This document shows, in pieces, positions 29,246-49,781 of a DNA stretch of 58,635 bases. Location of the stretch: positions 1-58,635 of the IMG/VR virus record IMGVR_UViG_3300030380_002200; one strand, given 5' to 3'. The position numbers and the translations under genes were made by a program. The notes beneath the pieces were generated by a model that saw only the letters and a program-made list of their open reading frames with translations, ran no database searches and was not told where the DNA came from. How positions within the stretch are numbered: position 1 is the first letter of the stretch; each line of letters starts with the position of its first letter. This stretch comes from a virus.

Positions 29246-29506
29246 TTACTTGTCGTTCGCTTCCTCGTACAGGCGGTCAGCCCGTGACATGAAGTCCTCC
29301 TCCTCATTGGTGATGGTGAGGTCGGAGTCCTCCAACTCAGCGTACACGCCACCGAGATTCTCGATGGCTTTCTGCACGTCAGCTACTGCTTCCTGCTCAA
29401 GTGTGCTTTGGTCGGCACACCCATGGTCGGTGTACGTCACTCGCACACTGACCCATACCTCACCCGTGAAGGTGGGAATTACATAGTCGTCGTTTGGATT
29501 ACTCAT
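29246..29506 (-). CDS. Hypothetical acidic protein, 86 aa
   Basis: Start taken at MSNPNDDY (29506), which overlaps the amidotransferase stop by 8 nt; a longer frame to 29527 is less likely. EVWVSVRVTYTDHGCADQST reads as beta strands, then ADVQKAIENLGGVYAELED helix-strand and an acidic tail. Co-transcribed with the amidotransferase fusion, so it may work with it. No family recognised. Confidence 0.5.
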   Translation of the reverse strand: MSNPNDDYVIPTFTGEVWVSVRVTYTDHGCADQSTLEQEAVADVQKAIENLGGVYAELEDSDLTITNEEEDFMSRADRLYEEANDK

Positions 29507-30605
29507 GGTCGTTGAATTTGAATACATCCTCGATGGTGTCGCTGATGTCGATTAGGTCTTTCTCTGCGTACCATGTATCGCACTCGCCGCAATGGTAGTT
29601 GTTGAACCCGTCGTACTCCACGTCAGCGAAGCACGTTGGGCAGACATGGCCGTCGTCGGGGAAATCGCAGTCAGCCAACTCGAAGCAGTCGGTGACTTCG
29701 TACTCGCGCTCGAACTCGATGGTCTGTTGGAACGGCTCCGCACGTTGCGGCAACACACGTTCGTATGACTTGTGATGCTCCTTGCCCTCGATGTTGACGT
29801 CGTTGAAGTACACCCATGCCGTGACAATCCTACGGCCCTTGTCCAACACGACAGGCACTTGCTCTCGGACGTACCAACGTGGGTGGCCCTCAAGCCCGTC
29901 GAGGTCAGCGAAGGTCTCGTCGTCAACGCGGAACACATCCACCTCAACGTGATGCCCGATACCCTGTTTGGGGGATAGGAACGGGAGGCCGTCGATGATG
30001 AGCGGGTATTTCTCTGCTGTGACTGCGCTACCCATGTAGATGGACTGACCCTGCAAGTGTCTCGCGTAGTTCCCATGCCCGCGCTTCAACGTGCCGTACA
30101 CAGCGACCACGTTGTCGCGAAAGATATTGGTCTTGCTGTACCACACACCATCCTTGTACGTGAACAGGTCGCGATTGTAAATCTGAAACGACTTGTGCTT
30201 GGTGTTGATGGACACGAAGCGAACGGCCTTGAACTTGGACAGGAACTTCTTCCATGACTTGCGTGGCATATCACCGAGTTTGTTGGCGATGTCCTGCGTA
30301 TCGGTCATGTCCTTGTTGCCGTATCCGTTGACCGTGCCGTTCATCATGAACAGTTCGTCGGCGTTCTTGCCACATACGAACGGGTGGGTGTTCTCCTTGC
30401 AGACCTTGCCGATGGTGGCGTACCTGAAGTGAGCAATGAACGGACGCTCGGTGTCGAGGATAGCGTACTCGCTTGACTTGAAGTAGTCCGTCTTGAAGGT
30501 GTCGAGCCACGTCACACCGAGGCCGTGAGGGTTGACGATGGAGGCGTTCTCCAACGTCTGCATAGCAATCTTGTTCTGCTTCTGCTTGATGATGATTACA
30601 CACAT
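29499..30605 (-). CDS. Class II glutamine amidotransferase - gamma-glutamylcyclotransferase - zinc ribbon fusion
   Basis: 368 residues, three parts. (1) About 1-110, class II glutaminase: Cys2 nucleophile directly after Met, HGLGVTW, AHFRYAT (58-64), NTHPF (72-76) and NG (89-90; the usual preceding His is Met). (2) About 165-290, AIG2/GGCT-like cyclotransferase: VYGTLKRG (169-176) and DGLEGHPRWYVRE with the expected catalytic Glu239. (3) A C-terminal zinc ribbon, CPTC (322-325) and CGEC (339-342). The glutaminase would release ammonia from glutamine; the cyclotransferase acts on gamma-glutamyl amides. Together with the amidoligase at 32278 it suggests amide or peptide-bond chemistry on a metabolite, wall peptide or protein. 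A strong promoter with a palindrome-bearing leader lies upstream. Confidence 0.8.
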   Translation of the reverse strand: MCVIIIKQKQNKIAMQTLENASIVNPHGLGVTWLDTFKTDYFKSSEYAILDTERPFIAHFRYATIGKVCKENTHPFVCGKNADELFMMNGTVNGYGNKDMTDTQDIANKLGDMPRKSWKKFLSKFKAVRFVSINTKHKSFQIYNRDLFTYKDGVWYSKTNIFRDNVVAVYGTLKRGHGNYARHLQGQSIYMGSAVTAEKYPLIIDGLPFLSPKQGIGHHVEVDVFRVDDETFADLDGLEGHPRWYVREQVPVVLDKGRRIVTAWVYFNDVNIEGKEHHKSYERVLPQRAEPFQQTIEFEREYEVTDCFELADCDFPDDGHVCPTCFADVEYDGFNNYHCGECDTWYAEKDLIDISDTIEDVFKFNDHE

Positions 30606-31772: not shown

Positions 31773-31804
31773 CAAAGATAAGACAAGAATTGTACACTTC
31801 CAAA
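31773..31804 (-). promoter_or_regulatory. Bacteroidota-type promoter
   Basis: Minus-strand TTTG (31804-31801), 20 nt, TATCTTTG (31780-31773), 15 nt before the ATG at 31757. Spacer resembles those at 28587 and 30670. Confidence 0.8.
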
Positions 31805-32277: not shown

Positions 32278-33192
32278 TCACCACCCGTGGCGGGTCAGGT
32301 CTCTGTCCCACCTGTCGGTCATGTTGCGGTGTGGGTCAATCCACGCGATGGTCTCGCGGTTGATTTGCCCTGTGCGGAGCATCTTGTTGAAGGCTTCCGA
32401 CAGCGTCAGAATCTCGGTGACCTTCACCTCGTCGTGGCCGTACATGGAACTCACGATGGGCGTGACGGCCTTGAGGAACGTCTTGAACGATGCGTTCGGG
32501 CGGTTGACAGCGAAGTCGAGCATCATGTAACACAACTCGTAGCGACGCATCATCTGCTTCACACCTGTGATGCGCGATGGCAAGCGGAACTCAACTCGGT
32601 CGCCCTTGCGGAGGCAGACTTGGTAGCGTCCTGCGTTGGTCTCCACGTCCATGAATGGGTTGCTTCGGCAGTAGCCGTTGCCCAACCGACGACGGAACAG
32701 GGAGAGCATGACCCCGCTGAACTTCTTCAAGCGGTTCATCAACTCCTCACCTTCCATGCCGTCCACAGCCAAGGTGATGTGCCCACCACAGCGGTGGTCG
32801 CTTGGGCTGTGGCTGTCCTCGATGATGCGCTTTGCCTCGTACATCATGTTGAAGACCTTGTTGCGCCATTCGCCCTTGGGGAGCAGGGGCAAGATGTGGG
32901 TGATGGCTTCGTAGCCACATGAGCCGTCACGCTCGAACCCTGCGAACAGAGCGTACTCGGTGACTGCGCCACGGCTGAAGCGAGACTTCTCAACCTCGAA
33001 GCCAATGGTGAACCTGCTGTTCACGTTGCCGTTCTCGAACTCGATGACGTTGCGCTTCTGCGCAGACTTCAGCGTTGCGATGTCTCCCTTCTTGGCTCCC
33101 ATGCCAAGGTGCTTGGGAGATGGAGAGCCGTGGTAGCGGACAACGCGGTTGCGGTTGTAGTCGCCTGTGGTGGTGTATTGGATAGTGTCCAT
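32278..33192 (-). CDS. Glutamine-synthetase-like amidoligase (COOH-NH2 ligase family)
   Basis: 304 residues from the ATG at 33192; a longer frame would translate palindrome copy 12 and is rejected. FTIGFEVEKSR (Glu66, Glu68), HRCGGHITL (His133, His138) and DRVEFRLPS (Glu201, Arg203) are the three metal/ATP-binding signatures of the GS-fold amidoligase family found in phages, fungi and bacteria. These enzymes are predicted to join a carboxylate to an amine with ATP. Known genomic partners in the literature include class II amidotransferases and cyclotransferase-like proteins, and both domains are encoded 1.7 kb downstream. The substrate could be host wall peptide, a phage protein or a small metabolite. 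Confidence 0.75.
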   Translation of the reverse strand: MDTIQYTTTGDYNRNRVVRYHGSPSPKHLGMGAKKGDIATLKSAQKRNVIEFENGNVNSRFTIGFEVEKSRFSRGAVTEYALFAGFERDGSCGYEAITHILPLLPKGEWRNKVFNMMYEAKRIIEDSHSPSDHRCGGHITLAVDGMEGEELMNRLKKFSGVMLSLFRRRLGNGYCRSNPFMDVETNAGRYQVCLRKGDRVEFRLPSRITGVKQMMRRYELCYMMLDFAVNRPNASFKTFLKAVTPIVSSMYGHDEVKVTEILTLSEAFNKMLRTGQINRETIAWIDPHRNMTDRWDRDLTRHGW

Positions 33193-33209
33193 GGTGTTGA
33201 GTTTTAGGT

Positions 33210-33225
33210 GTGTCCTTGAAGACAC
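33210..33225. repeat. Dispersed 16-nt palindrome, copy 12
   Basis: GTGTCCTTGAAGACAC in the 36-nt space between the first minus-strand gene and the amidoligase start. Confidence 0.85.
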
Positions 33226-34801: not shown

Positions 34802-34802
34802 G

Positions 34803-34876
34803 TACTCCCTATAGGATTCGAACCTATGACCCACAGCTTAGAAGGCTGTTGCTCTATCCAACTGAGCTAAGGGAGC
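34803..34876 (-). tRNA. tRNA-Arg (anticodon UCU)
   Basis: Complete cloverleaf on the minus strand: acceptor GCTCCCT/AGGGAGT (first pair G-U), D arm with AGTTGG, anticodon stem ACAGC/GCTGT around CTTCTAA, T arm with TTCGAAT, discriminator A. No encoded CCA. It would read AGA (and AGG), codons that recur in the plus-strand structural genes. The only convincing tRNA in the window. Confidence 0.95.
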
Positions 34877-35053: not shown

Positions 35054-35085
35054 TTGGAGCAAGGATACAGTTTTCTTTATCTTTG
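35054..35085 (+). promoter_or_regulatory. groEL promoter
   Basis: TTG (35054-35056), 21 nt, TATCTTTG (35078-35085), 23 nt before the ATG. Good Bacteroidota-type spacing. Confidence 0.75.
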
Positions 35086-35108: not shown

Positions 35109-36707
35109 ATGCAAAATTCAGGATTCACTCCCAAAAAATTGGAGTTCAATGACGAAGCACGAGAAAAGCTCGTCGAAGGAATCAATCAAATCGCGAACGC
35201 TGTAAGCAGCACCCTCGGCCCTGCGGGTCAAACAGTCATCATCGAATCGCCTGAACACACGCACGGCATCACCGTAACGAAGGACGGTGTTACTGTAGCT
35301 AAGGCCATCGACCTTCTCGACCCCACTGAGAACCTTGCGGTACGTATCATGAAGGAAGCGGCTGACCGTACTGCTACATCAGCGGGTGACGGGACGACCA
35401 CATCTATCGTGTTGGCTCGCGCCCTTGTCGAGGCGGGGTACAAGCACATACCTGACGGTGAGCGCACTGACGTGTTACGCGACTTGCGGGTAGAAACTGA
35501 GAAGGTGATTGCTTCCTTGAAGAGGCAGGCTCGCGCTGTGACGAAGGGGAGGCTCAAGGACGTAGCTACCATCTCCTCAAACAACGACAGCAAGATTGGC
35601 GACATCATCGCCAAGGTGTATAAGGACGTAGGAAAGAACGGCATCGTAACTGTTGACCGCTCTATGACGAGCGAGACATACTACGAGACAACCGACGGCA
35701 TCAAGGTTGACCGTGGGTTTAGCTCACCGCTGTTCATCAACGACCACAAGAAAGATGAGTGTGTCCTTGAGGACACACATATCCTTGTATCCGATGCTGA
35801 GATTAGCAACGTCTTGCAGATTGAGAATGTACTCAAGCCTATCATCGCTGAGAACAAGAAGCTACTGATTATCGCACCGTGCTCTGCGAACGTGGTGAAT
35901 ACCATCGCGGCCAACGTCATGAAGCGCGATATGAAGATTTGTATTATCCAACCACCGAACTTTGGATACAAGCAGCACGAGCTGATGCAGGACATCGCTT
36001 TGAGTGTGGGTGCTACATACTTCTCTGAGAAGACAGGCGACGACCTGAGCCTCATGCAGTATACTGACCTCGGTCGCGCAGAGCGCGTCATCGTGGGTCG
36101 TGACTCGTCGATTATCCTGAAGGATAAGGACAGCGGCAACCAAGAGTTGATTGACGAGCGCGTTATGCAGCTCAACGCTTCGCTTGCCATCACTCAGCGC
36201 AAGGCTGACAAAGACTTCATCCTTGAGCGCATCGCATCGCTGACAGGTGGCATCGGTGTTATATACGCAGGCGGAAATACTGACCTTGAGCAGAAGGAGC
36301 TATACGACCGTATCGACGATGCGGTGTGTGCGGTACGGTCTGCGCTTGAGGAGGGCATCCTACCCGGCGGTGGTGTAGCATTGTACAACGAGGTGATGAA
36401 GCGATACCACAACCCTCAGACTGTGGCTGAACAAATTTTCGCGGACGCACTTCGTGCGCCATTTGAGCAAATTGTCGAGAACGCAGGTCACTACAACGTA
36501 GACATTTGGGCAGGCAATGCTGACGAGTCACATAGCTATGGCTTCAACGTCAAGACTGAAAAGTATGGTGACATGTATGAGATGGGTGTGATTGACCCAC
36601 TCAAGGTTACGCGGTCTGCTCTTGAGAACGCAGTAAGTGTTGCCACAACTATTCTGTCTACCAATGCCATCATTACTATGGCACGGACATACGAGCAGAA
36701 GTCGTGA
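35109..36707 (+). CDS. groEL: Phage-encoded GroEL (60-kDa chaperonin)
   Basis: 532 residues, co-linear with bacterial GroEL over its whole length. STLGPAGQ (34-41) and GDGTTT (93-98) form the ATP site; DRIDDAVCAVRSALEEG includes the Asp equivalent to catalytic D398, followed by ILPGGGVAL; VIDPLKVTRSALENA closes the equatorial domain. The Gly-Met tail of bacterial GroEL is missing. The apical domain (about 190-375) is divergent, as expected if substrates or the GroES partner differ. All key ATPase residues are kept, so it is probably active. GroES is encoded 58 nt downstream. Chaperonins are rare in phages; the likely clients are virion proteins. It contains a palindrome copy (35761) without an indel relative to bacterial GroEL. 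Confidence 0.95.
   Translation: MQNSGFTPKKLEFNDEAREKLVEGINQIANAVSSTLGPAGQTVIIESPEHTHGITVTKDGVTVAKAIDLLDPTENLAVRIMKEAADRTATSAGDGTTTSIVLARALVEAGYKHIPDGERTDVLRDLRVETEKVIASLKRQARAVTKGRLKDVATISSNNDSKIGDIIAKVYKDVGKNGIVTVDRSMTSETYYETTDGIKVDRGFSSPLFINDHKKDECVLEDTHILVSDAEISNVLQIENVLKPIIAENKKLLIIAPCSANVVNTIAANVMKRDMKICIIQPPNFGYKQHELMQDIALSVGATYFSEKTGDDLSLMQYTDLGRAERVIVGRDSSIILKDKDSGNQELIDERVMQLNASLAITQRKADKDFILERIASLTGGIGVIYAGGNTDLEQKELYDRIDDAVCAVRSALEEGILPGGGVALYNEVMKRYHNPQTVAEQIFADALRAPFEQIVENAGHYNVDIWAGNADESHSYGFNVKTEKYGDMYEMGVIDPLKVTRSALENAVSVATTILSTNAIITMARTYEQKS
35761..35776. repeat. Dispersed 16-nt palindrome, copy 14 (inside groEL)
   Basis: GTGTCCTTGAGGACAC read as Cys-Val-Leu-Glu-Asp-Thr in the apical domain. 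Bacterial GroEL has the same number of residues here (AVELESPFIL region), so the copy replaces rather than inserts sequence. Confidence 0.85.
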
Positions 36708-36765
36708 TGGGATATTGGACAACCACCACTTCGTATGGTGACATTGAAATCAAATATATTCTAGT

Positions 36766-37023
36766 ATGAAGCCAATAGGAAAGTATATCCTCATCGAGCC
36801 TGCGATGGAGGAGGTAGAGACAGAGTCAGGGCTATTGCTTACCGTAGAAGACCACGAAGAGTTTCGCTATCGCAAGGCTTTGGTATGCGCAGTAGGCACT
36901 GACGTAACTACCATGAAGGATGGCGATACCATCTACTATGACAACCGCTCAGGGTATAAGGTCATGTTGCATAATAAAAAGTACAGCGTCATCAAGGAGC
37001 ACGATGTCGTTGTTGTCGAATAA
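36766..37023 (+). CDS. groES: Phage-encoded GroES-like co-chaperonin
   Basis: 85 residues. KYILIEP, then a mobile-loop-like EEVETESGLLLT (about 15-26), VCAVGTDVTTMKDGDTIYYD and a final KYSVIKEHDVVVVE strand follow the GroES order, but it is about 12 residues shorter than E. coli GroES. The hydrophobic triplet LLL in the loop stands where IVL contacts GroEL. It lies directly downstream of groEL, so the pair forms an operon. Its 3-prime end overlaps a convergent minus-strand gene by 32 nt. Confidence 0.85.
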   Translation: MKPIGKYILIEPAMEEVETESGLLLTVEDHEEFRYRKALVCAVGTDVTTMKDGDTIYYDNRSGYKVMLHNKKYSVIKEHDVVVVE

Positions 37024-44063: not shown

Positions 44064-44282
44064 ATGGACATCCGAAAGATTTCCATCGGCCCCGACTACA
44101 AGTCGGGTGCTATGCATTACCTCGTAGGGCAGAAGGTTCTAAACGGAGAATACTGTATTCACCTTATCCAATGCGTAGACAACGAGTATCGCATTTGGAT
44201 TGAGCGTGATGACGAAGTAATGCTGTGGAAGTCTTTCACACCAACTGTACCTGTTAGTGTGGAGTACAACATCAACTTTTAA
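44064..44282 (+). CDS. Hypothetical protein, 72 aa
   Basis: MDIRKISIGPDYKSGAMHYL, VGQKVLNGEYCIHLIQCVDN, then EYRIWIERDDEVMLWKSFTP. Beta-rich small protein that I associate with the terminase-proximal region in this phage type. Function unknown. Stop and next start overlap by 1 nt. Confidence 0.55.
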   Translation: MDIRKISIGPDYKSGAMHYLVGQKVLNGEYCIHLIQCVDNEYRIWIERDDEVMLWKSFTPTVPVSVEYNINF

Positions 44283-44848
44283 TGCAATCCCCATTCAACT
44301 TTATCGTCAAACCACATAAAGGCACGAGGTATAATAACACGGTAGATTGGGAAGGGGTAGAGTTTACTACCAACACATCAGAGGAGGAGGCGAAGTTTTC
44401 GAACCGTAAGGCTATTGTAGTCTCAGTGCCATTGGGTTATGACGGGCCAATCAAGGTGGGATACACCCTGCTTGTCCACCACAACGTATTTAAGTTCTAC
44501 AACGACATGAAAGGTCGTCGTAAGAGCGGGCGTAGCTTTTTCAAGGAAGACTTGTTCTTTGTTGATAGAGAACAGTTCTTTATGTACCATGATGGCAATA
44601 AGTGGAATGCACATGACAGATACTGCTTTGTATCTCCTATCCCATCAGAGGAGTGCTATATTCAAAAGCCTACGCACGAACCCCTCATGGGGCGCATGGA
44701 ATATCCAAATAAGTATCTTGTAAGCAAGGGAGTCCACACAGGAACGATTGTGTCATTCACTCCGGACTGTGAGTATGAGTTTGACGTAGATGGGGAGATG
44801 ATGTATAGAATCTATGACCACCAAATCACCATGAAGCATGGACACTAA
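44282..44848 (+). CDS. Terminase-proximal protein, possibly GroES-fold-like
   Basis: 188 residues. FNFIVKPHKGTRYNNT, KVGYTLLVHHNVFKFYND, FVSPI and, near the end, SFTPDCEYEFDVDGEMMYRI followed by YDHQITM. Two blocks each read like strand-loop-strand units of a GroES-type barrel (a KxGYxLLVHHxVF element and a final GExxYRIxDHxITM element). I think proteins of this sort precede terminases in other marine phages. A co-chaperonin-like function is a guess from this pattern; otherwise uncharacterised. Confidence 0.4.
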   Translation: MQSPFNFIVKPHKGTRYNNTVDWEGVEFTTNTSEEEAKFSNRKAIVVSVPLGYDGPIKVGYTLLVHHNVFKFYNDMKGRRKSGRSFFKEDLFFVDREQFFMYHDGNKWNAHDRYCFVSPIPSEECYIQKPTHEPLMGRMEYPNKYLVSKGVHTGTIVSFTPDCEYEFDVDGEMMYRIYDHQITMKHGH

Positions 44849-45122
44849 GGAGGTCAAACTAAAGATTATCGAAGCGGGTCACCGTGCTGTAGAGCAACTC
44901 ATCAAGGTTGCCAAAGAGCAAATCATCAAGCACGACCCTGAAGACGACTTGTCGGCTGACAGGCTGAAGAACGCGGCGGCAACAAAAAAGCTGTGCATCA
45001 TGGATGCCTTTGAAATCCTAAACAGAATCGAGGCCGAAAGAGAGGCTATCGAAACATTACAAACAGGCTCTACCAACAAGGTGGATACAAAGCAAGGATT
45101 TGCAGAACGAAGGTCTAAATAA
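44838..45122 (+). CDS. Possible small terminase subunit, 94 aa
   Basis: Helical throughout (EVKLKIIEAGHRAVEQLIKV, then LKNAAATKKLCIMDAFEILN). Directly upstream of and overlapping the large terminase gene, the usual place for the small subunit. No clear HTH, so the name rests on position only. Confidence 0.4.
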   Translation: MDTKEVKLKIIEAGHRAVEQLIKVAKEQIIKHDPEDDLSADRLKNAAATKKLCIMDAFEILNRIEAEREAIETLQTGSTNKVDTKQGFAERRSK

Positions 45123-47349
45123 CAACTTGCATCGTGTCATACATGACTACATCCCCAAGCATGTGCTTTCTACTAAGAACAAAGCAAAGACTTGGAAGTA
45201 CGGCTATGACCCAAAGTATGACCTTGTAATCATATCGAAAGACGGAACTCTCGGTGAGGTATACGAGATTCAGAATCTAAAGATTGGACTTCCGAAACCT
45301 CCCAAGGCGTGTCCTCAAAGACACGCTAAGAGAAGTGAGCAGTATTGGGAGAGAGAAGAAATCCCTGCTCACCTGAATAAAATCCAATCCATCTTCCAAT
45401 GGAACGAGATGACCTCGGACTTCAAGTCGAGGTACGTTGACTATATCGAGCGTGAGTTCGACAGGAGGGACGATGGCTATTGGTTTATGAACGATGGCAA
45501 GCCAACCTATCTTACAGGGGCGCACTACATGTACTTGCAATGGACAAGCATTGATGTAGGATACCCTGATTTTCGCGAGGCCAATCGTTTGCTGTACATC
45601 TTTTGGGAAGCGTGCAAGGCTGACCGAAGGAGCTTTGGCATGGTGTACCTGAAGATTCGTCGTTCAGGCTTTTCATTTATGTCGTCGTCAGAGTGTGTAA
45701 ACACCGCGACACTCGCCAAGGATTCTCGTGTAGGCATCCTTTCCAAGACGGGTACAGATGCCAAGAAGATGTTTACCGACAAGGTTGTTCCAATCAACAG
45801 CCGACTTCCATTCTTCTTCAAGCCTATCATGGACGGTATGGACAAGCCTAAGACAGAGCTTGCATACCGAGTGCCTGCGGCTAAGATTACTAAGAAGAAC
45901 ATGTTTGATATTGAGGAGGAACAGATTGAAGGTCTCGACACCACAATTGATTGGAAGAATACTGACGACAATTCTTACGACGGTGAGAAGCTACAGCTTC
46001 TTGTTCATGATGAGAGCGGCAAGTGGCTCAAGCCAAATAGCATTCTCAACAATTGGCGTGTCACCAAGACGTGCTTACGGTTAGGTAGCAAGATTATTGG
46101 CAAGTGCATGATGGGGTCAACCTCCAATGCATTGTCTAAAGGTGGAGGAAACTTCAAGGACTTGTACCGAGACTCTGACGTGCTCAAGAGAAACAAGAAC
46201 GGACAGACCAAGAGCGGGATGTACTCCCTTTTCATTCCGATGGAGTGGAACATGGAAGGGTTTATCGACCGCTACGGCATGCCCGTGTTTAGAACGCCGC
46301 ACAGTGCTGTCAAAGGTATCGACGGAGAAGACATCCATCAGGGGGCTGTAGATTATTGGCAGGCTGAAGTGGACTCGCTCAAGTCAGATGCTGATGCTCT
46401 TAACGAATACTACAGGCAGTTTCCGCGAACAGAATCACACGCCTTCAGAGATGAAAGCAAGCAGTCCATCTTCAACCTCACACGTATCTATCAGCAGATA
46501 GACTACAACGATAGCTTGATTATCAATCAGCACATTACACAGGGTAGCTTTAGATGGAAGGACGGTATCAAAGACACATCGGTTATTTTTTCTCCTGATA
46601 AATCAGGACGATTCAAGGTGTCATGGGTTCCCCAAAGTGGGATGCAGAACAGAATTTCTCAGAGAAACGGAATCAAGTATCCGGACAATGAGCACCTTGG
46701 CGCATTTGGCTGTGACTCGTATGACATTTCAGGCGTAGTGGGTGGGGGAGGCTCTAACGGTGCGCTTCATGGATTGACTAAGTTTAATATGGACGATGCA
46801 CCGAGCAATGAGTTCTTTTTAGAATATGTCGCAAGACCACAGACAGCAGAGTTGTTTTTTGAGGATGTTCTTATGGCCTGTGTGTTTTATGGGATGCCTA
46901 TCCTTGTAGAGAATAACAAGCCTAGACTGTTGTATCATTTCAAGAACCGAGGCTATCGAGGATTCTGTATGAACAGACCTGATAAAACATATAATAAACT
47001 ATCCAAAACGGAGAGAGAACTTGGGGGAATCCCAAACTCTTCTGAAGACGTGAAGCAGGCGCACGCTTCAGCTATTGAGTCCTACATTGAAAAGTATGTA
47101 GGCATAGATATGGATGGCTCGTTTAGAGATACAGACGAGATGGGTTCTATGCTATTTACACGAACCCTTGAAGATTGGGCGAAGTTTGACATTAGCAACA
47201 GAACCAAATTTGACGCAAGTATTAGTTCGGGATTGGCTATCATGGCTTGCCAAAAGCACCTGTATCAGCCCGAAAAGAAGACAAATAAATTAAGCCTTAC
47301 CTTTGCAAGGTATAATAACAAGGGGGCTTACAGTGAACTGATTCGATGA
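45100..47349 (+). CDS. Terminase large subunit
   Basis: 749 residues if the TTG at 45100 is used; the true start may be the TTG at 45127, as no ATG precedes the conserved region. IRRSGFSFMSSSE (about 185-198) is a deviant Walker A, LLVHDESGKW (about 302-311) Walker B with catalytic Glu, GSTSNA (about 339) the coupling motif. The RNase H-like nuclease starts at GCDSYDISG (about 545) with further acidic residues after LFFEDVLMACVFYGMPILVE. It cuts and pumps DNA into the head. Palindrome copy 15 is near the N-terminus. Overlaps the portal gene by 4 nt. Confidence 0.9.
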   Translation: MQNEGLNNNLHRVIHDYIPKHVLSTKNKAKTWKYGYDPKYDLVIISKDGTLGEVYEIQNLKIGLPKPPKACPQRHAKRSEQYWEREEIPAHLNKIQSIFQWNEMTSDFKSRYVDYIEREFDRRDDGYWFMNDGKPTYLTGAHYMYLQWTSIDVGYPDFREANRLLYIFWEACKADRRSFGMVYLKIRRSGFSFMSSSECVNTATLAKDSRVGILSKTGTDAKKMFTDKVVPINSRLPFFFKPIMDGMDKPKTELAYRVPAAKITKKNMFDIEEEQIEGLDTTIDWKNTDDNSYDGEKLQLLVHDESGKWLKPNSILNNWRVTKTCLRLGSKIIGKCMMGSTSNALSKGGGNFKDLYRDSDVLKRNKNGQTKSGMYSLFIPMEWNMEGFIDRYGMPVFRTPHSAVKGIDGEDIHQGAVDYWQAEVDSLKSDADALNEYYRQFPRTESHAFRDESKQSIFNLTRIYQQIDYNDSLIINQHITQGSFRWKDGIKDTSVIFSPDKSGRFKVSWVPQSGMQNRISQRNGIKYPDNEHLGAFGCDSYDISGVVGGGGSNGALHGLTKFNMDDAPSNEFFLEYVARPQTAELFFEDVLMACVFYGMPILVENNKPRLLYHFKNRGYRGFCMNRPDKTYNKLSKTERELGGIPNSSEDVKQAHASAIESYIEKYVGIDMDGSFRDTDEMGSMLFTRTLEDWAKFDISNRTKFDASISSGLAIMACQKHLYQPEKKTNKLSLTFARYNNKGAYSELIR
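45309..45324. repeat. Dispersed 16-nt palindrome, copy 15 (inside terminase gene)
   Basis: GTGTCCTCAAAGACAC, read as Cys-Pro-Gln-Arg-His in a third codon phase different from the groEL and giant-gene copies. Confidence 0.8.
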
Positions 47350-49781
47350 AGGATGTTAAGATAAACATATCATCTACAGGGTTTCCGAGTCAATTCGTGT
47401 CCGACGCTGAAAAAGACTCCGAAGAGTTCGGTCTTCAGATTGGTCAGGCCATTCAGTATGAATGGTTTAAGAAGGACGGAAGTCAATGTAGATTTTACGA
47501 GCAATTTCGTGCATTGCATCGTTTGCGCCTTTATGCAAGAGGAGAGCAATCTATTGCGAAGTACAAGCAAGAGTTAGCTATTGATGGAGATTTATCTTAC
47601 ATCAATCTTGATTGGACACCTGTACCTATTCTTCCCAAGTTTGTAGACATCGTTGTAAACGGAATGTCGGACAGACTTTTTTCCGTCAAGGCATACGCAC
47701 AAGACGCTTTGTCACAATCAAAGCGCAGCAAGTATCAAGACCTTATTGAGGGGCAGATGGTTGCCAAACCTGTGTTGGAAAAAATTCAGAAGGCTACAGG
47801 AGCAAACCCTTTTGTTACTGACCCCGATGAGCTTCCGGAAACTGATGAAGAACTGTCACTCTATATGCAGCTTAACTACAAGCCTGCTATCGAGATTGCA
47901 GAGGAAGAAGCCATCAATACCATTTTTGAGGAAAACCACTACAATGACCTGCGCAAAAGGTTTGACTATGACCTTACCGTTTGCGGAATGGCCGTTGCAA
48001 AGCATGAGTTCCTCAAGGGCAGCGGAGTCAAGGTATCATACGTTGACCCGGCGAATGTGGTGTACAGTTACACCGACGACCCTCACTTCAAAGATTGTTT
48101 TTATTGGGGGGAGATAAAGACAGTTCACACAAATGAACTGCTGAAGATTGACCCTACTCTTACGAATGAAGACTTGCAAGAGCTTTCACAGTACGGTCAG
48201 AGCTTTTACGACTACTTCAACTTAGCACAGTATTACGACAATAGTATCTTTTACAGAGATTCTATTACGCTTCTGTACTTCAATTACAAGACGACTAACG
48301 ACATCGTCTACAAAAAGAAAGTTACAGATAGTGGAAACGTAAAGATGATTGAGAAGGATGACACCTTCAATCCACCTTCCGATATGATGGAAGAGGGCAA
48401 CTTTGAGAAGGTGTCAAAGAAGATTGATGTTTGGTACGACGGTATTATGGTGATGGGCACAAATTATCTTCTGAAGTGGGAGATGTCCAAAAACATGGTA
48501 AGACCAAAGTCTGCTAGTCAACACGCTATACCAAACTATGTAGCTGTAGCACCTCGCATGTACAAGGGCGTTATTGAGTCTTTGGTGAGAAGGATGATTC
48601 CTTTTGCCGACCTCATTCAGATGACGCACCTGAAGCTGCAGCAAGTTATTGCCCGCACAGTTCCGGATGGTGTATACATCGACGCAGATGGACTGAACGA
48701 GGTTGACCTTGGAACGGGCAATGCATACAACCCTGAAGACGCTTTGCGTCTGTACTTCCAAACGGGTTCTGTTATTGGTAGGAGCTATACGCAGGACGGA
48801 GAGTTCAACAACGCTCGCGTTCCTATTCAGCAGCTCACCTCCAACTCAGGCGCGTCCAAGACGCAGATGTTGATTGCCAACTACAATCACTATCTCGATA
48901 TGATTCGTGCGGTTACGGGACTCAACGAGGCTCGTGATGGCAGCACCCCCGACCCCAACTCATTGGTGGGCGTACAGAAGTTGGCTGCGCTCAACTCCAA
49001 TACAGCTACAAGGCACATTCTAGATGGAAGCCTTTACCTCTTTAAGACTCTTGCAGAGGGTCTGTCTTATCGTATTTCAGACATCCTAGAGTATTCTGAC
49101 TTTACTGATGAGTTCATCAACCAAATCGGAAAGTATAACGTCAGCATTCTCAATCAGATTTCTGACCTATACATCTATGACTTTGGTGTGTTTATTGAAG
49201 TCGCTCCTGACGAAGAGCAAAAAGCTAAGTTGGAGCAGAACATTCAGATGGCGTTGTCTAAGCAAGACATATTCCTTGAAGACGCTATTGACATCCGCGA
49301 GATGAAGAACATCAAGCTCGCCAACCAACTGCTCAAGCTAAAGCGTAAGCAAAAACAAGACCGCGAGGAGCAGCAGATGTTGCAGGGCAAGGCTATGGAA
49401 ACGGAGAGGCAGATGAAGTCTCAGCAGTTTGCAGCGCAAGCTGCTATGCAGAAGCTGCAAGCCGAGACGCAATCGAAGATGCAGATTAAGCAGGCTGAGA
49501 TTTCGTTCGAGATTGAGAAGATGAAGAACGAGGCGGAACTTAAGAAGATGCTTATGGAGCAGGAGTTCCAATACAACATGTCACTCAGAAACATTTCTGA
49601 GGATGCACTTCAGAGCAGAGAAACACAGCGCGAGAAAGCTAAATCTGAAAGGATTAGTCAGCAAAACTCTGAGCAGAGCAAGCTGATTAACCAACGCAAG
49701 AACAACCTTCCACCTCAGAACTTCGAGTCTAACGAAGACAGTCTTGATGGTTTTGACATGGCTGAGTTCTCGCCAAGATAA
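47346..49781 (+). CDS. Portal protein
   Basis: 811 residues. Size, place between terminase and scaffold, and features such as INLDWTPVPILPKFVDIVVN, VSYVDPANVVYSYTDDPHF and IPFADLIQMTHLKLQQVIAR fit portal proteins of Bacteroidota podoviruses. The C-terminal 170 residues are a Gln/Lys-rich coiled coil (LKRKQKQDREEQQMLQGKAM, then QKLQAETQSKMQIKQAEISF), as expected for a barrel extension. It forms the DNA channel at the head vertex. Confidence 0.85.
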   Translation: MKDVKINISSTGFPSQFVSDAEKDSEEFGLQIGQAIQYEWFKKDGSQCRFYEQFRALHRLRLYARGEQSIAKYKQELAIDGDLSYINLDWTPVPILPKFVDIVVNGMSDRLFSVKAYAQDALSQSKRSKYQDLIEGQMVAKPVLEKIQKATGANPFVTDPDELPETDEELSLYMQLNYKPAIEIAEEEAINTIFEENHYNDLRKRFDYDLTVCGMAVAKHEFLKGSGVKVSYVDPANVVYSYTDDPHFKDCFYWGEIKTVHTNELLKIDPTLTNEDLQELSQYGQSFYDYFNLAQYYDNSIFYRDSITLLYFNYKTTNDIVYKKKVTDSGNVKMIEKDDTFNPPSDMMEEGNFEKVSKKIDVWYDGIMVMGTNYLLKWEMSKNMVRPKSASQHAIPNYVAVAPRMYKGVIESLVRRMIPFADLIQMTHLKLQQVIARTVPDGVYIDADGLNEVDLGTGNAYNPEDALRLYFQTGSVIGRSYTQDGEFNNARVPIQQLTSNSGASKTQMLIANYNHYLDMIRAVTGLNEARDGSTPDPNSLVGVQKLAALNSNTATRHILDGSLYLFKTLAEGLSYRISDILEYSDFTDEFINQIGKYNVSILNQISDLYIYDFGVFIEVAPDEEQKAKLEQNIQMALSKQDIFLEDAIDIREMKNIKLANQLLKLKRKQKQDREEQQMLQGKAMETERQMKSQQFAAQAAMQKLQAETQSKMQIKQAEISFEIEKMKNEAELKKMLMEQEFQYNMSLRNISEDALQSRETQREKAKSERISQQNSEQSKLINQRKNNLPPQNFESNEDSLDGFDMAEFSPR

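Follow-up and report, generated by a model that had tools for sequence, protein, structure and literature searches.

The window analysed here comprises one entire IMG/VR virus record (58,635 bases) from a podovirus-type phage, whose host group is probably Bacteroidota, judging from its relatives and promoter type. Terminase, portal and structural genes occupy the right part of the genome, and the primase, helicase and Sak-type annealing genes lie on the opposite strand. The features relevant to chaperonin function are the following:

35054-35085, + strand: promoter-like site of the Bacteroidota type (TTG-N21-TATCTTTG), 24-55 nt upstream of groEL, found by pattern scan
35109-36707, + strand: groEL, group I chaperonin of 532 aa, ATG start (Pfam PF00118, PHROG groEL)
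35823-35825, + strand: codon for Glu239, which aligns with E. coli L234, a GroES contact in helix H (residue comparison)
36766-37023, + strand: groES (GroES1), single-domain co-chaperonin of 85 aa, ATG start (Pfam PF00166, PHROG groES, structure model)
44282-44848, + strand: GroES2, tandem GroES-like (Cpn20-like) protein of 188 aa (PHROG, predicted model, PDB match)
45100-47349, + strand: terminase large subunit, the next large gene after GroES2 and a possible client (PHROG E=3.3e-183)
47346-49781, + strand: portal protein, a possible client (PHROG E=4e-146)

The groEL product matched the Pfam family Cpn60_TCP1 (PF00118) with E=4e-54 over residues 28-524, covering positions 1-488 of the 490 in the profile, and the PHROG groEL family with E=9.6e-142. 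All five ATPase residues (K51, D52, D87, D398 and D495 in E. coli numbering) were present, as an earlier note on this DNA had stated, and were kept in 27/27 rows of the GroEL clade containing the window protein, with a conservation of the ATP site as tight as in cellular GroEL. From the full-length Cpn60 domain and the ATP-site residues, the protein can be assigned to the group I chaperonins; a co-chaperonin gene adjoins it. General decay of GroEL was ruled out, the ATP site being constrained as in cells and the mean entropy of all columns little higher in the clade (1.19 bit) than in cellular rows (1.03 bit). Degraded groEL genes in relatives, which the earlier note had regarded as a counter-indication, were rare. 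Nearly all genes were open, the exceptions being a clade groEL on a MAG contig of the Flavobacteriaceae bin UBA5079 (L170) that is divided between two frames, through either decay or a fault in the assembly, and one relative with shortened ORFs in both groEL and groES (L034).

Both genes lie on the + strand with a spacing of 58 nt. GroES1 matched Pfam Cpn10 (PF00166; E=4.5e-15, residues 2-83) and PHROG groES (E=1.3e-14), and its predicted model (pLDDT 85) had GroES/Cpn10 structures as PDB matches. The mobile loop of the window protein carries the motif SGLLL, and the hydrophobic tripeptide is found throughout the clade rows (SG[LI][LIV]L, compared with GGIVL or similar in cells). The roof hairpin was absent: the roof measured 11 residues in 27/27 clade rows and 15-20 residues in 22/22 aligned cellular rows. 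The hairpin was not treated as defining, because gp31 and similar lids lack a roof and nevertheless count as co-chaperonins, and GroES1 was assigned as a GroES/Cpn10 co-chaperonin by its Cpn10 domain and mobile loop. The pair had been called complete and side by side; the adjoining ORFs are indeed intact, but GroEL has no GGM tail (0/27 clade rows) and GroES no roof hairpin.

Upstream of groEL, the pattern TAnnTTTG was found within 120 nt in 27/29 distinct clade sequences, compared with 8.6% of random 120-nt windows. The proposal that the pair has its own promoter thus gains a conserved site of the Bacteroidota type, as a match to the consensus only. Further TTG-N(17-23)-TAnnTTTG sites of similar sequence (TTGGA...TATCTTTG or TATATTTG) occur on the - strand in the leftward block, e.g. 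at 31803, 30700, 28617 and 27188, which suggests that such promoters may be used throughout the phage. Just upstream of groEL, between the divergent gene blocks, there is a tRNA-Arg gene (anticodon tct; 34802-34876, - strand). The leftward block also encodes a gamma-glutamyl cyclotransferase domain protein with a weak class-II glutamine amidotransferase match (29499-30605, - strand) and, a few genes off, a 315-aa protein (32278-33225, - strand), a combination that may resemble phage peptide-ligase clusters.

A groEL match was detected in 263 of 50,697 phage records, and in 229 of them it covered 80% or more of the query. The statement that few phages carry GroEL is therefore fair as a fraction. 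A few of the positive records are plainly bacterial contigs filed as phage, such as CAKLQH020000021 with its surrounding host metabolic genes. All 38 close relatives from the IMG/VR scan (two of which, L037 and L038, end at the contig edge) and also the record MW202828 had groES downstream of groEL on the same strand. Annotated pairs are present in flavobacterial podoviruses whose deposited genomes measure about 60-73 kb, and the records with such a pair include those of Elemovirus, Callevirus and immuto; in Elemovirus a second gene, next to the terminase, is labelled co-chaperonin. In Bacteroides phage DAC20 an unannotated Cpn10 gene lies just before groEL. Among 42 chosen whole records, groEL was found in 40 and Cpn10 in 34, and the 12 groEL phages outside the group of the window had a Cpn10 gene in six cases (two adjacent, four far) and no match in the other six. 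Non-adjacent pairs may be overlooked, since the Vibrio phages W09-W12 have Cpn10 far from groEL in the genome.

Parts of the chaperonin set have been noted before. The available text of PMC7185714 states that some phages have both GroEL and GroES homologues, both are reported for Maribacter phage Panino in the excerpt of PMC11590407, that of PMC8776804 has 'chaperonin cpn10' among the core proteins of Pervagoviridae, and that of PMC5332604 notes GroEL for 36 environmental genomes belonging to the phi38:1 group. The pair alone is therefore a known kind. The relatives and the deposited podoviruses rule out its rarity, and the view that a full pair is notable in a genome of about 58 kb had to be dropped in the light of the 38/38 relatives, the cultured podoviruses of similar size and the pairs in PMC7185714 and PMC11590407.

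In a GroEL tree of 73 rows, built by a quick method, the window protein fell into a 27-row clade that stood apart from every cellular GroEL in the sample (SH-aLRT 100) and includes phage-like contigs from metagenome bins, e.g. L162-L169. The GroEL proteins of Elemovirus, Panino and Calle had very long branches that allow no safe placement. The GroES rows of the clade, likewise 27, stood together on one side of a branch, with a support of only 17, so that the grouping of groES with unrelated proteins, raised earlier as a possible objection, mostly did not appear. A recent joint transfer from the host was unsupported by the GroEL tree, the GroES tree being too short to decide (support 17). Within the clade groEL precedes groES; those cellular loci that yielded a groES have it upstream of groEL. 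No groES was found in L203, L231 and L235, and L241, from an Alphaproteobacteria bin, had the clade order. Nine phage-like or partial chaperonin matches came from a single bin labelled Aliivibrio (G027; L164, L193, L248, L254, L259, L262, L264, L265), which is probably full of phage contigs.

These data bear on the explanation that the phage carries a spare GroEL/GroES pair of host type, derived from its host, which would add folding capacity and be interchangeable with the host partners. Both genes retain the folds of their families and the ATP site, and recent capture does occur elsewhere, the DAC20 GroEL lying inside Bacteroidia in the tree. However, the clade is separate from the sampled cellular GroEL, the gene order is the reverse of that in cellular loci, and both the GroES contacts and the inter-ring contacts (see below) are unlike the host type, and we regard a host-derived pair as improbable. 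The best reading is that the chaperonin kit is old and vertically inherited in the phage lineage.

According to the available text of PMC5575113, the inter-ring salt bridges of GroEL are K105-D435 and E461-R452. Both bridges were possible in 0/27 clade rows but in 30/33 cellular rows, and single bridges were still possible in 1/27 rows for one and 5/27 rows for the other. The variability of the clade at six core inter-ring sites was higher than in all 10,000 column sets matched for cellular conservation. Chance was rejected as the source of this result, with 0/10,000 matched sets reaching it. The columns of G337, G110 and G119 had undergone just as strong a change, which shows that the ring interface is not the only part affected, and a general relaxation of GroEL surfaces beyond it is possible. 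The wider lists of inter-ring and apical sites draw in part on general background on GroEL. With the contacts lost that join the two rings of cellular GroEL, the phage GroEL is probably a single-ring or ring-splitting machine.

The face of GroEL that binds the lid has also changed. GroES contacts in GroEL include L234, L237 and V264, as given in the available portion of PMC3514286. At the L234 position all 27 clade rows had Glu, while all 33 cellular rows were hydrophobic; the L237 position remained hydrophobic (27/27) and the V264 position was A, S or G in 25/27 clade rows. The natural Glu at position 234 presumably resembles a laboratory mutation that abolishes binding, although no text with such a mutation was found. 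The variability of the GroES/substrate face in the clade was no higher than that of random columns (0.53 of the random sets were as high), which indicates that its residues are different yet fixed. According to an excerpt of PMC5575113, the lid of a single-ring GroEL stays trapped if the grip is not loosened, so the combination of a changed lid face with lost ring contacts would make mechanistic sense. The altered apical face suggests that the phage GroEL may use its own lids rather than those of the host.

A different division of labour would have both phage lids act on the host GroEL in the manner of T4 gp31, with the phage GroEL serving, for example, as a holdase or a virion-associated protein. 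The Glu at the L234 contact in 27/27 rows would fit such an arrangement, as would the missing roof that GroES1 has in common with gp31 (the latter from the accessible part of PMC6318259). In the available text of PMC13288928, the GroEL of the related phage phi38:1 was detected during infection, in line with a working phage chaperonin. It also turned up in the virion fraction, a location that would likewise agree with lids acting on the host GroEL and could reflect another role or carry-over. However, N265, whose Ala mutant in E. coli GroEL blocks GroES binding (PMC3514286, from the same portion), is kept in 27/27 clade rows, the ATP site of the phage GroEL is constrained, and groEL and groES occur together in 38/38 relatives. 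We consider it improbable, to about the same degree as a host-derived pair, that the lids work on the host GroEL.

The distances between GroEL proteins and those between GroES proteins were correlated (Mantel r 0.68, 25 pairs, 0/2000 permutations as high). This correlation is no proof of co-adaptation, as common ancestry would by itself produce it. The earlier suggestion that the apical domain and the GroES mobile loop had co-diverged is thus borne out to the extent that the contact residues changed in one consistent way clade-wide and the distances correlate; co-divergence proper does not follow. Together, the correlated distances and the consistent apical changes make a private pairing of the phage GroEL with the phage GroES plausible. 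The same distinction applies to the idea of a self-contained folding machine, for which an intact, co-inherited and plausibly private pair speaks.

The earlier note missed both the loss of the inter-ring contacts and a predicted second, tandem co-chaperonin encoded at 44282-44848. GroES2 matched the PHROG co-chaperonin GroES family (E=2.2e-22) and had no Pfam match at E<=0.1; two Callevirus homologues passed the Cpn10 cut-off through their C-terminal part. The model of GroES2, predicted with 30 aligned relatives, had a mean pLDDT of 78 and a pTM of 0.74, and its best match among solved structures was the tandem co-chaperonin Cpn20 (chain 7ekq_R, Foldseek E=2.9e-4). VIA-align superposed this chain with Z 9.8 and rmsd 4.0 on 156 residues over positions 1-187, with both halves matched. 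The separate halves gave Z 6.8 (N-terminal) and Z 6.9 (C-terminal) against single GroES chains, and the whole-chain match carries the weight here, because Z values below 8 may reflect merely a common arrangement. T4 gp31 reached Z 5.6, and non-chaperonin GroES-like rows began at Z 4.8, below all chaperonin rows.

Profile comparison recognised the C-terminal half of GroES2 as GroES-like (91%, E=9e-7; best of 20 column shuffles 5.5%, E=0.007) and the N-terminal half weakly so (8%, E=0.0043; best shuffle E=0.059), while a relation between the two halves was unsupported (1.7%). The N-terminal half has a loop, G-x-[ED]-[FLI], that was aligned by eye to GGIVL of GroES, and its glycine and the neighbouring hydrophobic residues are conserved; no mobile-loop-like motif was seen by eye in the C-terminal half. 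A conserved basic loop around GRRKSG was modelled with low confidence. The predicted fold indicates that GroES2 comprises two GroES-like domains in one chain.

Among phage records, 77 held a homologue of GroES2 (68 of Flavobacterium, 7 of Cellulophaga, 1 of Maribacter, and MW202828), and IMG/VR yielded at least 598 stretches with one. A full-length copy was present in 28 of the 42 surveyed records, most of which had been chosen through groEL: 23/25 from IMG/VR and 5/5 of MW202828, Elemovirus, Calle, phi38:1 and Panino, as against 0/12 groEL phages that do not belong to the flavobacterial podovirus-type group. GroES2 occurred without groEL in two fragments of about 40 kb (G019, G022), and groEL without GroES2 in two of about 48 kb (G008, G016). 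Records longer than 50 kb that were found through GroES2 itself had groEL and Cpn10 in 4/4 cases. Among the loci with at least 1.5 kb of downstream sequence, some of which re-cover the same record, a terminase frame followed GroES2 on the same strand within 1.5 kb in 80/80. Among the titles and abstract beginnings that literature searches gave, none describes a tandem or terminase-linked phage co-chaperonin.

The constant position directly before the terminase in these 80 loci could also mean that GroES2 is a packaging or head protein, for instance a partner of terminase or portal, that reuses a doubled GroES fold, the chaperonin then consisting of GroEL and GroES1 only. The mobile-loop-like motif is confined to the N-terminal half, which is weak by profile, in agreement with such a role. 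Against it, the best fold match is a co-chaperonin and all chaperonin rows rank above the non-chaperonin GroES-like domains, the loop glycine and adjacent hydrophobic residues are conserved, and the gene accompanies groEL within its own group and was not found in the 12 other groEL phages. A packaging role for GroES2 is therefore possible, although we think it rather unlikely.

The reading to which we give reasonable, if not high, confidence is that the phage encodes a group I chaperonin kit of GroEL, GroES1 and GroES2 for its virion proteins, probably with a single or splitting ring. The GroEL ring would bind ATP and a newly made phage protein, GroES1 or GroES2 would cap the loaded ring, and the ring would work alone or split during the cycle. 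Virion proteins (capsid, portal, terminase or fibres) might then fold even where the chaperonin of the host is in short supply or ill suited to them. A more elaborate version, offered tentatively and itself rather doubtful, is a three-part chaperonin insulated from the host, in which a single-ring GroEL with a rebuilt lid face would be served by a roofless GroES and by a second lid, Cpn20-like and of two storeys, that is produced along with the packaging genes; the chamber in which capsid, portal or terminase fold would thereby become larger or otherwise different.

The uncultured podovirus MW202828 from Manatee Spring has the same genome plan, with identities of 62% for groEL, 45% for groES and 65% for GroES2, which is annotated there as hypothetical. 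The flavobacterial podoviruses Elemovirus, Callevirus (Calle, phi38:1) and Maribacter phage Panino likewise have GroEL, a nearby single-domain GroES and GroES2 before the terminase, but their GroEL is only about 35-37% identical to that of the window, and in Callevirus groES comes first. No description of Elemovirus, Callevirus or Panino as a two-lid system was found in the parts of the literature available.

The accessible excerpts describe phage chaperonins of two sorts: GroEL homologues from large phages, which are said to need no lid, and gp31-type lids that use the host GroEL. Single-ring states are given for the GroEL homologues of phages EL and OBP in excerpts of PMC5934643 and PMC7185714, and for that of phage AR9 in a title and the start of its abstract. 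The EL chaperonin is said in the available text to need no co-chaperonin, unlike the kit proposed here, and the EL-like record surveyed had a GroEL identity to the window of at most about 29% and no Cpn10 match. T4 gp31 is a phage-encoded lid without roof loops, like GroES1 (PMC6318259, accessible part), but in this arrangement T4 has no GroEL of its own and gp31 works on that of the host, whereas the window phage also encodes GroEL. Mitochondrial Hsp60-Hsp10 shows the same loss of the K105-D435 and E461-R452 bridges (excerpt of PMC5575113); the present case differs in being a phage lineage, known here from sequences, with a changed L234/V264 face. Chloroplast Cpn20 has two GroES-like barrels in one chain, as in the GroES2 model, but the identity is about 10% and the mobile-loop-like motif of GroES2 is in the first domain only. 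What goes beyond the known pair is the tandem GroES2, the lost inter-ring bridges, and the rebuilt GroES face with a roofless GroES.

The GroEL-GroES pair, together with a second, two-domain lid encoded beside the DNA-packaging genes, hints at a virus-owned folding machine built unlike that of the host. If this is true, a compact phage GroEL with two lids of different kinds would open three questions to direct test: the release of the lid by a single-ring chaperonin, the natural rewiring of chaperonin-lid specificity, and the influence that a lid can have on the chamber in which virion proteins fold. The phage chaperonin kit is testable in its cultured relatives (Elemovirus, phi38:1 and Panino).
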